Assembly: GCA_001823925.1 (NCBI GenBank)
Contig: MHWB01000008.1
Location: forward strand, 1-49,594
Reading direction: 5' to 3'
Length of the DNA stretch: 49,594 nt
Origin: Candidatus Zambryskibacteria bacterium RIFCSPLOWO2_01_FULL_39_39
Lineage (GTDB): Bacteria; Patescibacteriota; Minisyncoccia; Phycocordibacterales; WO2-35-19
Every line of letters starts with the position of its first letter. The stretch's first letter is position 1. The notes beneath the pieces are model-generated. The model was not told where the DNA came from, made no database searches, and saw only the letters and a list, made by a program, of their open reading frames with translations. Of the stretch, positions 25,009 through 49,362 are shown one piece after another. The translations under genes and the position numbers were made by a program.

Positions 25009-25929
25009 ATGTCCTACGCTAAAGTTCATAGCGCTCAAGCCTCTCTTTTGAAACCCTATATTGTTGACGTAGAAGCAGACCTCTCGCGAGGTCTTAATTC
25101 TTTTTCCATTGTAGGGCTAGGGGATAAAGCTGTTGATGAGGCCAAAGACAGGATAAGCGCTGCTGTCAAAAATAGCGGATTTGAATCTCCAAAGTCCAAA
25201 AATCATAAAGTAGTTATCTCCCTTGCTCCCGCAGAAGTCAAAAAAGAAGGCTCTGGGCTTGATGTGGCCATTGCTCTTTCATATCTTTTAGCAAGTGGCG
25301 ACATTATTTTCGATCCAAAAAATAAAATATTTTTAGGCGAGCTTTCACTTGACGGCTCTTTACGAGGAGTCAAAGGCGCTTTAGCTTTTGCGAGGAAAGC
25401 TAAAGAAAAAGGTTTTAAAGAAATATATTTACCTTTGCAAAATGCTCCGGAGGCTGCTTTGGTAGACGGCTTACTTATTTATGGCGCGGAAACTCTAATG
25501 GAAATAATAAATCATGTTTCTCGCGATACTGATATAAATCAAAAATTAAAACAAGAAAAAAAGAAAGAAATAAAAAATTTGCATAACATTTCTCTAGACC
25601 TCTCTGACATAAAAGGACAGGAGGGTGCTAAGAGAGCCTTGGAGATAGCGGCCGCCGGCGGACACAATATAGCCTTGTACGGCCCTCCGGGGACCGGCAA
25701 GACAATGCTGGCCAAAGCTCTTCCCGGGATACTTCCACCACTTTCTTTCGATGAAGTTTTGGAAGTAACAGAAATACATTCTATGGTCGGGGCTTTAAGT
25801 GATATTTTGCTTGCCGAGCGACCCTTCCGCTCGCCCCATCATACCGCTTCCCATGTCGCCATTATTGGCGGTGGCTCAAATCCAAGGCCGGGAGAAGTTA
25901 CTCTGGCCCACAAAGGAGTGCTTTTCTTA
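25009..25929 (+). pseudogene. comM: ComM/YifB Mg-chelatase-like ATPase, 5' part (interrupted)
   Basis: SYAKVHSAQ...VDVEADLSRGLNSFSIVGLGDKAVDEAKDRI; Walker A LYGPPGTGKTMLAKALPGILPPL; RSPHHTASHVAIIGGGSNPRPGEVTLAHKGVLFL then element sequence. Confidence 0.93.
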
Positions 25930-25950
25930 AATAATTATGCACTCTTGAAC
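25930..25950 (+). repeat. Left terminal arm of element (attL, element side)
   Basis: AATAATTATGCACTCTTGAAC; 18/21 identical to reverse complement of 36533-36553. Confidence 0.8.
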
Positions 25951-26146
25951 TAATGTTTATAAGGTTCATACTATTTCAAATAAAGATTCTGTAAGCCACT
26001 ATAGAATGTCCACACAATTAGTTGAAGTTTTTTGATTTTTTGCTATTATTATGATGACAATTTAATAGTCTTTGCGGTGCTGTAGAATCCGTCTATAAAT
26101 GATACTTAGGATTCGCTTTTCGCCTTCAAAGCATAGAGATTGAGTC

Positions 26147-26167
26147 TTATTTCCATTTTGGAAATAA
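26147..26167. other. Perfect hairpin in element leader region
   Basis: TTATTTCCA TTT TGGAAATAA. Confidence 0.6.
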
Positions 26168-26428
26168 CGCTTAGCCTTTGTGTAATGACGGCGATTTTTG
26201 TTTTCAAGAACGCCTCACAGCAGAAAAAGTATGAATGCCAAGAAATTGGATTCTACGGAAAAATCTGTCGGCACCTCAAAGACATACATACCAAAAGTAA
26301 GTGTGGATATTGAAGGGAAACTGCTTACAGAAAAAATGCGAGAAAAATTAGGAAAAAGAATTTTTCTTGTGTTGACTAATTCCTTAGAAACAAATGTGAA
26401 GATGTAACGAGAATTAAAAATAAAATAT

Positions 26429-26860
26429 CCATTGCGGCCGAAACAAAAGCTCTGTCTTACCGCCGCAATGGGGATGGGGCTTTTGTTTCGCATAAGCCCC
26501 CAGAATTGGCAGACAATCCATTACAGTTCTTGCCAATTTGGACATAGAGATTCCGAGAAAAATGGCCACTGCCGAATGTGCGTAGTTTTCAAGATTACGG
26601 ACTGGGAGACCCCCTAAGCTGTAAGCCATCGCCAGTTTCTGCGTTCTGGTGTATTCAAAACGCAAACTGCATATGATATAGGAACCTGGGTATGCGGTTA
26701 AAGTATAGGTCTCACGACTACCAAATGTGCATAAATTTACTATGCGACCGTTCCGAAAAGGGGTGCTGGGCTGTGGCTTGCTCTAAATACGCCACCTTTA
26801 CGCCAAGGAGGACACCCAAAAATCGATGGCAAATCTCGGATAACTCTCCCATATGGGAGC
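26429..26860. ncRNA. Candidate large structured non-coding RNA (or structured DNA) region
   Basis: Interleaved stems 26429-26438/26462-26471 (10 bp) and 26439-26450/26479-26490 (12 bp); hairpins 26504-26511/26531-26538, 26633-26645/26659-26669, 26773-26777/26791-26795, 26846-26850/26855-26859; visibly more GC-rich than surroundings; no convincing ORF. Confidence 0.5.
26803..26822 (+). repeat. Direct repeat copy 1 CCAAGGAGGACACCCAAAAA
   Basis: 19/20 identical to 26953-26972. Confidence 0.75.
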
Positions 26861-26952
26861 TTAGCTCGATGAAATCGGGGTAACTACAGCTATATCCAAA
26901 TTTGTGAGGGTTAGACATTAAAAGAGGTTAGCGACTCAAACATCATAAAAAT

Positions 26953-26972
26953 CCAAGGAGGACACTCAAAAA
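26953..26972 (+). repeat. Direct repeat copy 2 CCAAGGAGGACACTCAAAAA
   Basis: 19/20 identical to 26803-26822. Confidence 0.75.
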
Positions 26973-27102
26973 AAGTAAGGACGCTAAGCAAATATAATGA
27001 TGAGCGACAAACATCAAGATTTGATTAAGATTAATATTCAAATAATTTGAGTCGCGAAAGCATCTTTTTGTCTAAAAAATTATTAGTAACAATTTTAACA
27101 AG

Positions 27103-27588
27103 ATGAATAAAATAAAACCTAAAAAAGAATTGGGCGAAAAATTAACGGAGTTATTGACTTCAATGGAAGACCATACCCACTTAGCTCTTATTCAGTCTTT
27201 TGATTCAACCTATCAATTGCTGGCCAAAGAATTTTGCAGTCAAATGATAAGAGAATATGGTTGCCAAACAAGTCTGGAAAAGTCATTGGTTGAAGTAATT
27301 GCCAATTCATACATAAGAACAATAGAAACTTCCAAAAGATTAAACAACTGCCTAAACGCAAACAGATATATTGATGATGCATCAACAAGATACTTAGCCA
27401 TGTTAAGCAAGCAAATAGACAGGAGTAATCGCCAATTTTTGAGCGGAATCATTGCTCTTAAACAACTGATGTCTCCCGCTGTTGAAGTTAATGTAAAGAC
27501 AAAAAACGCCTTTATTGCTCAAAATCAACAAATAAATAGCGATTATAAACCTAAGCCGACAAAAAATGAAAACAATGAGTCCAAATGA
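27103..27588 (+). CDS. Hypothetical protein of element
   Basis: 161 aa helical ORF; C-terminal EVNVKTKNAFIAQNQQINSD. Confidence 0.65.
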   Translation: MNKIKPKKELGEKLTELLTSMEDHTHLALIQSFDSTYQLLAKEFCSQMIREYGCQTSLEKSLVEVIANSYIRTIETSKRLNNCLNANRYIDDASTRYLAMLSKQIDRSNRQFLSGIIALKQLMSPAVEVNVKTKNAFIAQNQQINSDYKPKPTKNENNESK

Positions 27589-27901
27589 TTTAGGAAAAAA
27601 ATTTATTGTGGAAGAATGCCAAAAGTTAAAAATTGGAGACTGTTTGAAGAATTTCAAACTTAGCTTCAAAGAAACCGTCTTGAAGTCTGAATTAGATGTT
27701 TTTAAGCAATCTGTTGAACTAACCACTACAAAAACAGGGTTTAACGGCATTCGCTTTTGGTTCAAATGTCCACTATGCTTAAAAGGGATAGGGGTGCTAT
27801 TTGTTCATCCGTTGGACGGCAGAATTGGTTGCAGAGAATGCCTTAATCTTGAATATAGGAAAAGGAGATATAAGGGTATGGCTGAGTGCGATTTATTATA
27901 A
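27566..27901 (+). CDS. Zinc-ribbon hypothetical protein
   Basis: GFNGIRFWFKCPLCLKGIGVLFVHPLDGRIGCRECLNLEYRKRRY (CxxC...CxxC); overlaps the previous ORF. Confidence 0.65.
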   Translation: MKTMSPNDLGKKFIVEECQKLKIGDCLKNFKLSFKETVLKSELDVFKQSVELTTTKTGFNGIRFWFKCPLCLKGIGVLFVHPLDGRIGCRECLNLEYRKRRYKGMAECDLL

Positions 27902-29969: not shown

Positions 29970-30091
29970 TGATGGCGGAAAACACAAAGCCCGCCACCAG
30001 GAAGGCACCTTTCGGTTACCTCTACCAGAGTTTCCCCTGGTAACGCTACCAACGCCCTGATGACGGGTTTTCTATGTTGGTAGCGATTTTA
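29970..30091 (-). promoter_or_regulatory. Structured leader candidate upstream of the 29126-29947 gene
   Basis: Minus strand: CGCTACCAAC...GTTGGTAGCG, TACCAG..CTGGTA, GGTAACC GAAA GGTGCC, GGTGGCGG..CCGCCATC hairpins in series. Confidence 0.5.
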
Positions 30092-30316
30092 GACCATGCC
30101 TCCTAGTTTGAAGCCAAAAGGGTTAGGTCTCTCTGCTTATTCAATTGTGAATTGATTATATATCAAATAGAGCCAAAAATATAGGCTAAACAATAAACGC
30201 GTAAAATCGCGTATAACAGTTTGAAATGCTCAAGAGCATATTTGGTATATATTTCGTAATTGAAACGCAGGCACGCTTGTATACTGCGAAATAGAGCTAT
30301 AAAAAACTAAATTCAC

Positions 30317-33648: not shown

Positions 33649-34587
33649 ATGAAAAATGAAGTAGAAAAAGTATCAGATTTATTTTTGGATAAAAATCTAA
33701 TAGAAGATATATTTGAACATATAGATGTTAAAGAACAAACAAAAAAGGAATACTGCTATTTTGTTAGAAATTTTATTGTTTTTATGCAAAATAAACTCTT
33801 TAATGAAAATAGTTTTCTTGAGTTCAAAAAATACTTATCTGAACGGACAAATTTATCTGTGGCAACAAAAAATAAATATTTAACTTCTGCAAGAATTTTT
33901 CTCAAAGAATTAAATCGTCGTCGTATTATACCCATAGACATAACGCATAATATAAAATCATTTTCCCAGAGTAAGAAGCATAAACGAGAGGGAATGAGTG
34001 AAAAAGAAATTGCCTTACTTACAAAAAAAGTAAGGCAATTTTCTAACAAAGAAAACAATATACGGATAAAAGCTATCCTGTGCCTGCTAACCCTCCAAGG
34101 ACTAAGGCAATGCGAGATAGTTAGATTGGATGTTGAAGATTTGGATTTGGTCAATAATCTAATTTTTGTTAGAGGGAAAGGTGAAGATGATAAGGAACCT
34201 ATAAATTTGCACCCAGAAACAAGTATTGTGCTTTCGGAATATGTCAAAAAGTGCAGGATTGCAGATGGGGCGGTCTTTACCAGTTGGAGTAATAATAATA
34301 AGGGCAATAGAATAAGTGTCGCATCTCTTAGGCAAATAATTAGAGAGTTACTGCAAAAGTTAGAAATTATAAAACCAGTGCATGGCTTTAGGCATTACTT
34401 CACCACCAAGCTAATAAATACATATAAAGGAGACTTGCTTGAGGTTGCTAGATATACAAGACACAAAAGCATAGAGATGCTTCAGGTTTATAATGATAAT
34501 ATTAAGCTGAAAGCAGATTTGCCGAGATACTATCGAGCCTTTGAAGGTGTGAGTTTTGAAAGGAAAACAGACTTGAGCCCTTTATAA
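33649..34587 (+). CDS. Tyrosine recombinase/integrase
   Basis: SAM-like N-terminal domain, LQGLRQCEIVRLDVEDLD, HGFRHYFTTKLINTYKGDLLEVARYTRHKSIEMLQVYND. Confidence 0.92.
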   Translation: MKNEVEKVSDLFLDKNLIEDIFEHIDVKEQTKKEYCYFVRNFIVFMQNKLFNENSFLEFKKYLSERTNLSVATKNKYLTSARIFLKELNRRRIIPIDITHNIKSFSQSKKHKREGMSEKEIALLTKKVRQFSNKENNIRIKAILCLLTLQGLRQCEIVRLDVEDLDLVNNLIFVRGKGEDDKEPINLHPETSIVLSEYVKKCRIADGAVFTSWSNNNKGNRISVASLRQIIRELLQKLEIIKPVHGFRHYFTTKLINTYKGDLLEVARYTRHKSIEMLQVYNDNIKLKADLPRYYRAFEGVSFERKTDLSPL

Positions 34588-36532: not shown

Positions 36533-36553
36533 GTTCAAGAGCATATAATTATT
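36533..36553 (+). repeat. Right terminal arm of element (attR, element side)
   Basis: GTTCAAGAGCATATAATTATT. Confidence 0.8.
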
Positions 36554-36557
36554 GCTA

Positions 36558-37175
36558 GATGAGTTTCCAGAATTTGAAAATAAGGCAATTGAGTCTTTGC
36601 GTGAGCCTTTGGAAGAAAGATCGGTTTCTGTCTCTCGAGCTCGGGGTACTGTTAAATTTCCGGCACATTTTATACTTGTGGCGGCCATGAACCCTTGCCC
36701 TTGTGGCAACTTCGGTATTAAAGGCAAACCCTGCACTTGTGCACCCCTTCAAATTGAGAGATACAAAAGAAAAATCTCGGGGCCCATAGTCGATCGTATT
36801 GATATTTGGACTGAAGTTTCTAAAGTAGATCATGAAAAACTCACAGAAAAAGCAGAACAAAGCGAAAGCATTCCCGCCAGAGAAAGGATAATAAAGGCAA
36901 GAGGATTGCAGGCAAAAAGGTTTAGAGACGCTGGAAGAAAAATCAGCACCAATTCTGAAATGAGCGCCCGCGATATCTCTACAGTTCTGAAAATATCAGA
37001 TGAAGTCAAAGAAATTTTAAACAAATCTGCTCGCACCTTGGACCTCTCGGCTCGTTCTTATCATAAAATAATAAAACTAGCTCGGACTATAGCCGATCTA
37101 GAATCTTCCCTTGAAATTTCTCCTTCCCATATTTTGGAAGCCATCTCTTATCGCCCAAAACAAGCACAGTATTAG
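36558..37175 (+). pseudogene. comM: ComM/YifB Mg-chelatase-like ATPase, 3' part (interrupted)
   Basis: DEFPEFENKAIESLREPLEERSVSVSRARGTVKFPAHFILVAAMNPCPCG...GPIVDRIDIW; continuous with 25009-25929. Confidence 0.93.
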
Positions 37176-43389: not shown

Positions 43390-43462
43390 GCGCGGTTAGC
43401 TCAGTTGGTAGAGCAGACGACTTATACTCGTCCTGTCGGGGGTTCGAATCCCTCACCGCGCA
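43390..43462 (+). tRNA. tRNA-Ile (anticodon UAU)
   Basis: GCGCGGT...GACGA CTTATAC TCGTC...GGGGGTTCGAATCCCTCACCGCGCA cloverleaf. Confidence 0.92.
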
Positions 43463-47777: not shown

Positions 47778-47865
47778 GGAAGGTTGCCGGAGCGGTTAAC
47801 GGAACGGTTTGCTAAACCGTGGCCCCCTTTAAAGGGGCCCGTGGGTTCGAATCCCACACCTTCCG
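47778..47865 (+). tRNA. tRNA-Ser (anticodon GCU)
   Basis: GGAAGGT...GGTTTGCTAAACC, long variable arm GGCCCCCTTTAAAGGGGCC, GTGGGTTCGAATCCCACACCTTCC. Confidence 0.93.
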
Positions 47866-47982
47866 CAAATTTTCGAAAAGGGTTTCTGAACCAAAAATAT
47901 GGTCGGCACGAAGCGCCGTCTGTTCTGCATTCCCCCCAAAAAATTCTGAATCTGAAAGGGTTTTCCACGCTCCGCGTGGCTC
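47863..47982 (+). repeat. 120-bp inverted repeat, left copy
   Basis: CCGCAAATTTTCGAAAAGGG...CACGCTCCGCGTGGCTC; 119/120 to reverse complement of 49384-49503. Confidence 0.9.
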
Positions 47983-49362
47983 AAAAAGTACGGTTCGAGC
48001 TTCCAAAATAAAGTTCGAACCGACTTTTTTGAACAAATGAGTATTTTCCTCATTTGTTCGGTCGTTTGCCAATTCCATATTGTATTTCAAAAACTTTTCG
48101 GTAAGTTCGAACCGATTATTCGCTTTTTGCTCAAAAGCCAATAATTTCTCTTTGAGAAGCTGTTTGGAGGCAACCAGAGCGTTCTTTGCATCACGATATT
48201 CTTCGAGCGAAAGTGCGCTCTCCAAATAGGCGTTCATCAGCTTCTCTATTTTGGTTTCCAAAAGAGAAATTTCGGCTTTTATAGAGTCTGCAAAAAGCGT
48301 ACTCGATTGGATTTCGGATGATTGGTCTTTTCTGTTCTCCGCAATCATCCAAGAAAGCCAATCGAGTGGCAAAGAAACTTTTTTGATTTCCTCTTGGATT
48401 TGAGAAGTGATGAGCTCCTCACGGGCATACTTCTGCTCACAAGGATTTTTTCGTTTGGTACACCGCAAATAGTTATGACCTTTCTGTGTTTCGGTGGTAA
48501 TGAAGCAACCACATTCTCCGCAACGGAAAAATCCTCTGTACAAAAATGGTTTCAAACCTTTGGAATGCGGTTTAGATTTTCGGCTCATCACTTCTTGAAC
48601 TGTATCAAAAAGTTTCTTTGAAATAATCGGTTCGTGCTTTCCCTCAAAAATCTCTCCGTTGTATAACATCAAACCCGTGTAGATAGGATTTTTGAGAAGT
48701 TTTTGATAATTCGACACCGCAAGTTCCTTTCCGCTTTTTCGTTTCAATCCAAGTCCGTTAAATTTGTTACGAAGCTCCCGCAAAGTGAAGTTTCCTGTGG
48801 AATATGCCTCAAATGTCTTTTTGATAAGGGGAGCAATATCTACATCAACCACAATTCTTCCATCCTCGTTTCTATATCCCAACGGAGACATTTGAGGCCA
48901 TATACCGTCCTTCACTTTGTTATTCTTCCCACGCTTGATATTCTCACCGAGGTTATCAACGTAATACTTGGATTGCGAAAAAGCAATTGAAAGCATGAAC
49001 TTGCCTTGCGGTGTCGGATCAAACCAAAAAGTTGGAAATTTCATCTCGCTAATCACACCAGTATCAACGAGATAAATCACCTTTCCTCCATCAACACTAT
49101 TTCTCGCAAGTCTATCGGGGTGCCACGCCAAAATACCAGACGCCTCGCCTTTCTCCATTCGCTCCATCATTTCGTTAAACAAAGGACGGCCTGGTATTTT
49201 GGCGGTCTGCTTTTCGACAAAGACATCTACCACTTCAAGTTGTTCTTTCAGCGCGAGTTCCTTTAATTCACTCAACTGGTCTGCAATACTACGAACTTGC
49301 CTGTCTTTGTCGTCAGTGGACTTGCGAGTATAGATGAAAAACTTTTTGGTTTGATTATTCAT
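47866..49362 (-). CDS. Serine recombinase (resolvase/invertase N-terminus, Recombinase domain, zinc ribbon); C-terminus runs into the inverted repeat
   Basis: KFFIYTRKSTDDKDRQVRSIADQ, ILAWHPDRLARNS, PLGYRNEDGRIVVD, GFFRCGECGCFITTETQKGHNYLRCTKRKNPC; the listed ORF reads on to 47812 antisense to tRNA-Ser. Confidence 0.92.

Follow-up and report, generated by a model that had tools for sequence, protein, structure and literature searches.

A candidate large structured RNA with a predicted two-state hairpin at one end of a Patescibacteria integrative element

The window analyzed here, 49,594 nucleotides of contig MHWB01000008.1 from Candidatus Zambryskibacteria bacterium RIFCSPLOWO2_01_FULL_39_39, carries a 10.6-kb serine-recombinase integrative element inserted in yifB/comM, the two halves of which lie at 25009-25953 and 36552-37175. 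The attachment arms, GTTCAAGAGCATATAATTATT and AATAATTATGCACTCTTGAAC, form an inverted repeat (25930-25950/36533-36553), and the left element end (25928-25950) comprises the putative core TA at 25928-25929 together with AATAATTATGCACTCTTGAAC as the left attP half-site. Rejoining at TA (25928 and 36556) restores yifB in frame (VLF-L-DEFPEF), and we infer from the sequence that this TA is the recombination core. The cargo includes a large serine recombinase, a tyrosine recombinase, a cytosine methyltransferase, a staphylococcal-nuclease-type protein and a LOOT RNA. At one end of the element lies ~1.1 kb of gene-free DNA (25954-27102), and the candidate RNA described here lies ~30 bp inside the left element end.

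The gene-free DNA is followed on the + strand by ORF1 (27103-27588), a small protein that homologue comparison shows to be common to the element family and that is here missing 50-65 residues present at the N terminus in its homologues. ORF1 and ORF2 (27103-27901) form a conserved pair with no Pfam family above cut-off; ORF2 is zinc-ribbon-like, is 37-57% identical to its relatives and bears CPxC and CRxC motifs. Seven genomes belonging to the order and one viral contig contain relatives of ORF1/ORF2, and in all of these the position upstream of ORF1 is occupied by another protein gene, with no such RNA region. In the element of the window this upstream gene is absent and the RNA region stands in its place. 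LOOT RNA (RF03000) is present in most of the relative stretches, whose elements share ORF1, ORF2 and a serine recombinase; its sites are 30002-30129 (- strand) in the window, L021 13003-13122, L024 3074-3192, L025 4144-4262, L026 10207-10325, L046 13502-13623 and L057 4155-4284, one viral contig included, with L046 brought in through its recombinase alone. LOOT RNA seems to be a hallmark of the element family and offers a clue to what the family does.

Does the stretch upstream of ORF1 encode a protein? Neither the six ORFs of 25954-27102 nor any of its six read-through frames gave a credible Pfam match beyond chance, and none of the proteins from eleven related or comparable loci aligned to it before ORF1. 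These results bear out an earlier sequence-only reading of this DNA, which had seen no convincing gene here. They also dispose of a decayed gene, a possibility that the same reading had wanted checked: the read-through frames have no Pfam match, and there is no similarity to related-element proteins. Its remark that the stretch is richer in GC than its surroundings is likewise correct (~0.44 versus 0.33-0.37 nearby), and GC differs between the 5' domain and the middle domain defined below.

The whole predicted structured RNA (25960-27097, + strand) is closed by an outer helix, 25960-25973/27084-27097, and the minimum free energy of 25960-27102 on the + strand is -322.4 kcal/mol. With 24 shuffles for each sequence, z is -7.0 on the + strand and -3.4 on the - strand, while three same-length controls range from 0.1 to -2.0; here and throughout, the fold evidence is the thermodynamics of one sequence. 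A scan of the window from 20 to 38 kb placed its most extreme 120-nt segment at 26120 on the + strand (z -6.3). The sequence-only reading had located a hairpin-rich candidate RNA at 26429-26860. Stems are indeed present there, but the interval is too small, as the strongest structure lies at 25987-26332 and the predicted fold extends over ~25960-27097; around that interval, 26429-26960 reaches a z of only -2.2 on the + strand and -1.8 on the - strand. A sequence at 25945-25974 (+ strand), TTGAAC-18-TACTAT, is a possible weak promoter of the RNA, matching 8 of 12 consensus bases and falling below the scan threshold, from which the RNA would start at ~25981. The promoter/terminator scan revealed no intrinsic terminator, including between the RNA and ORF1.

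The 5' domain (25987-26332, + strand) consists of nested long-range helices around a long hairpin at 26120-26194. The outer helices, TTCTGTAAGC/GCTTACAGAA and AATGTCCACAC/GTGTGGATATT, are nested within one another with 10 and 11 bp (25987-25996/26323-26332 and 26005-26015/26301-26311), the inner helices are GTCTTTG/CAAAGAC and GGTGCTG/CGGCACC, and all four have a mean pair probability of at least 0.97. Two nested long-range helices of at least 10 bp were obtained in 6 of 1500 shuffles. The z of the domain is -7.8 to -7.9, compared with -6.9 for the tmRNA in the same window. The 5' domain is also partly palindromic as DNA, and the covariance model built from it gives 46.7 bits when run against the reverse strand of the domain. 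Is the symmetry then a property of the DNA or of a transcript? The predicted fold contains 17 G-U pairs on the + strand versus 4 on the - strand, and such pairs are not favoured by a DNA-level palindrome. Moreover, the strand energy gap of -28.6 was reached in none of 300 shuffles (mean -7.6, sd 5.0). The energy gap and the G-U excess together argue for a + strand RNA and against a DNA palindrome. Between the 5' and middle domains lies a 15-bp hairpin (26335-26373, + strand) with a mean pair probability of 0.97.

The middle domain (26381-26910, + strand; z -2.9) holds the interval to which attention was originally drawn, and all of the stems listed in the sequence-only reading were found at their positions: CCATTGCGGC/GCCGCAATGG (26429-26438/26462-26471), CGAAACAAAAGC/GCTTTTGTTTCG (26439-26450/26479-26490), AATTGGCA/TGCCAATT (26504-26511/26531-26538), CAGTTT..GCGTT/AACGC.AAACTG (26633-26645/26659-26669), GTGGC/GCCAC (26773-26777/26791-26795), CTCCC/GGGAG (26846-26850/26855-26859) and the pair GAGACC/GGTCTC (26606-26611/26708-26713). 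GTGGC/GCCAC, while present in the sequence, is displaced in the predicted fold, which prefers GTAAGCCAT/GTGGCTTGC (26621-26629/26773-26781); this helix and 26552-26558/26834-26840 have pair probabilities of at least 0.97. The two longest stems on that list are both present but mutually exclusive, since their arms alternate in the order A, B, A', B' without any linker separating A from B, and they cannot coexist. Among 2000 shuffles of 26400-26960, inverted repeats confined to 70 nt reached 10 bp in 44 cases and 12 bp in 2. The resulting bistable element (26424-26510, + strand) has two exclusive predicted folds. The first pairs 26428-26438/26462-26472 and 26476-26482/26494-26500, at -33.1 kcal/mol; the second is a long helix from 26439-26450/26479-26490, extended by G-U-rich pairs, at -31.3 kcal/mol (z -4.7). 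Shuffles matched the energy of the first in 19 of 2000 cases, that of the second in 1 of 2000, and both in 0 of 2000.

The 3' domain (26911-27075, + strand) is formed by TTAGACA/TGTCTAA, AAAAGA/TCTTTT and GCGACTCAAA/TTTGAGTCGC, with a closing stem that spans 165 nt; its z is -3.9, its pair probabilities are 0.93-0.95 and it contains an inverted repeat. The 3' arm of this fold ends at 27075, and the best-extended ORF1 homology starts at 27076. A 20-nt motif, CCAAGGAGGACAC(C/T)CAAAAA, occurs in two + strand copies 150 nt apart, namely CCAAGGAGGACACCCAAAAA, which includes AAGGAGG, at 26803-26822 and CCAAGGAGGACACTCAAAAA at 26953-26972, and with up to 3 mismatches these are its only copies in the genome. 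The repeat was rejected as a family tag, its 11 matches among genome contigs being scattered and single, none with a second copy.

To our knowledge, structured RNAs of very large size have been described from bacteria in only a few cases. Does the candidate belong to one of these, or to another described family? Comparison with the 4227 families of Rfam yielded nothing at gathering thresholds, and permissive filters up to E = 10, applied to 25900-27150, returned chance-level matches only; the sequence-only reading had likewise recognized none of GOLLD, ROOL or HEARO. Among GOLLD RNAs, many are longer than 800 nt and reside on phages and prophages (PMC12286853). Phages and prophages also carry ROOL, a large ornate RNA of unknown function that often lies close to tRNAs, and both RNAs build RNA-only cages whose purpose is unknown (PMC12286853). 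The candidate resembles GOLLD in being large, highly structured, noncoding and located on mobile DNA, and resembles ROOL as a large ornate RNA of mobile DNA. However, it has no match to the GOLLD covariance model up to E = 10 and none to that of ROOL, the element end lacks a tRNA cluster, and the element has no nearby tRNA, the tRNAs of the window at 43390 and 47778 both lying outside it. For HEARO/omega-RNA there was no Rfam match, and neither IscB nor TnpB is present among the ten element proteins scanned. A group I intron (RF00028), with GAGACC/GGTCTC as P7, would share the long RNA with long-range pairs, and the host genome has introns of this family, but it is ruled out by the lack of any RF00028 match even at E = 10, and domain V and related models of group II introns are not among the matches up to E = 10. 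LOOT RNA is structured too and occurs in this element and its relatives; it is, however, 121 nt long and lies elsewhere, and its model has no match to the candidate region. By the tests run, the candidate falls outside GOLLD, ROOL, HEARO and the group I/II introns.

No homologue was found by BLASTN in 197 related genomes, by BLAST against phages and plasmids, with the 5' domain covariance model in 397 and 380 genomes, with the middle domain model in 297 genomes, by pattern scans, or in the elements of relatives and viral contigs. The genome covariance searches used stricter Infernal filters, single-sequence models and overlapping genome sets, for which reason distant relatives could be missed. 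A match of the 5' domain model in genome G216 (18 bits, 43 nt) was judged to be chance, as was the single viral contig match to the TTCTGTAAGC pattern. That TTCTGTAAGC forms the terminal repeats of a MITE or transposon was also rejected, since the genome contains it only as the pair of arms of this single copy. With the recombinase as bait, the nearest relatives were only 27-30% identical, and a search of viral contigs with the LOOT pattern gave nothing. The candidate RNA may be an orphan, and because no relative was found its predicted structure rests on a single sequence.

Strong structure is present at other sites as well. Positions 48001-48400, within a second large serine recombinase gene (47812-49362, - strand) whose 3' end overlaps tRNA-Ser, have a z of -10.4/-10.1 on the two strands and are thus near-symmetric. 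In L046, a same-family genome, 12301-12600 has a z of about -9 on both strands and lies in and beside an intergenic gap near its serine recombinase and LOOT RNA. Both sites equal or exceed the 5' domain in z but, unlike it, are strand-symmetric. Within the tyrosine recombinase gene of the element, 33920-34120 has a z of -4.5 to -5.9 on both strands and contains the hairpin AATTGCCTTAC/GTAAGGCAATT. The sites at 48001-48400 and in L046 demonstrate that these genomes are subject to some process that makes palindromic DNA.

What kind of molecule would the candidate be? We consider it probable that the + strand structured RNA is real. The best single reading of the predicted fold, which we believe and doubt in equal measure, is a discrete, self-contained large RNA that would work like the ornate RNAs of mobile elements. 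We hypothesize that one RNA of ~1.1 kb would run left to right from inside the left element end to just before ORF1, with its compact 5' domain followed by the middle domain, which bears the two-state hairpin, and then by the 3' domain with its closing stem of 165-nt span. Such a self-folding ornate RNA of the element would have its structure itself as its product; it may be oligomeric, or may bind host factors such as ribosomes via two AAGGAGG-bearing stretches, and the two-state hairpin would act as a conformational switch. The absence of a gene, the stability of the + strand fold, its strand bias, its bistability and its position at the element end are computed, while transcription as a single unit and all function of the RNA are what we infer. 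That the RNA would represent an undescribed class of giant ornate RNA, ~1.1 kb long, belonging to a Patescibacteria-type integrative element and possessing a built-in two-state switch, is a tentative proposal toward which we lean slightly to the side of doubt. An undescribed structured RNA, as first suggested for this DNA, is upheld in part: there is no Rfam match beyond chance, no decayed ORF was found, and the + strand fold goes far beyond shuffles, with a G-U strand bias; a conserved family or a discrete transcript would be a further step.

The main alternative hypothesis is that the region is a long structured 5' leader of an ORF1-ORF2 operon, in which the hairpin and the outer helix would control read-through or translation of ORF1. 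The same strand, the place directly upstream of ORF1, an outer helix (27084-27097) that ends 5 nt before the ORF1 ATG, a gap to ORF1 without a terminator and the bistable hairpin would all suit such a role. However, the region is far longer than usual leaders, its two-state hairpin lies 600 nt upstream of the start, and the ORF1-ORF2 pairs of the seven genomic relatives and the viral contig exist without it; we regard a leader as unlikely. Less likely again are DNA-level palindromes or mutational quasi-palindromes without an RNA role, which could, for example, arise by template switching or act as protein-binding or origin sites near the attachment end. Such an origin is consistent with the strong symmetric structures at other places in the window and in relatives, some of them within genes, and with the scoring of the 5' domain on both strands, but the marked + strand preference and G-U excess of the candidate stand against the near-symmetry at 48001-48400. 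Finally, the 5' domain (25987-26332) could be a compact RNA unrelated to a separate, weakly structured remnant (26381-26910), given a z of -8 for the former versus -2.9 for the latter and their difference in GC. The whole-region z of -7.0 and the outer helices that join both parts speak against this division, as does the fact that neither part has a homologue that would separate them, and we consider it very improbable.

If the reading as a self-contained large RNA is correct, an unrelated large RNA carried by a mobile element in a bacterium with a minimal genome would point to repeated origin of such RNAs on mobile DNA, and the candidate RNA would be a new testable scaffold. Elsewhere in the host genome, whose small size (0.8 Mb) and group I introns fit a Patescibacteria-type bacterium, contig C4 (87067-89851; L006, L007, L009 and L010) contains several group I intron matches within ~3 kb, one of them above the curated cut-off, that adjoin the 23S and 5S rRNA genes.
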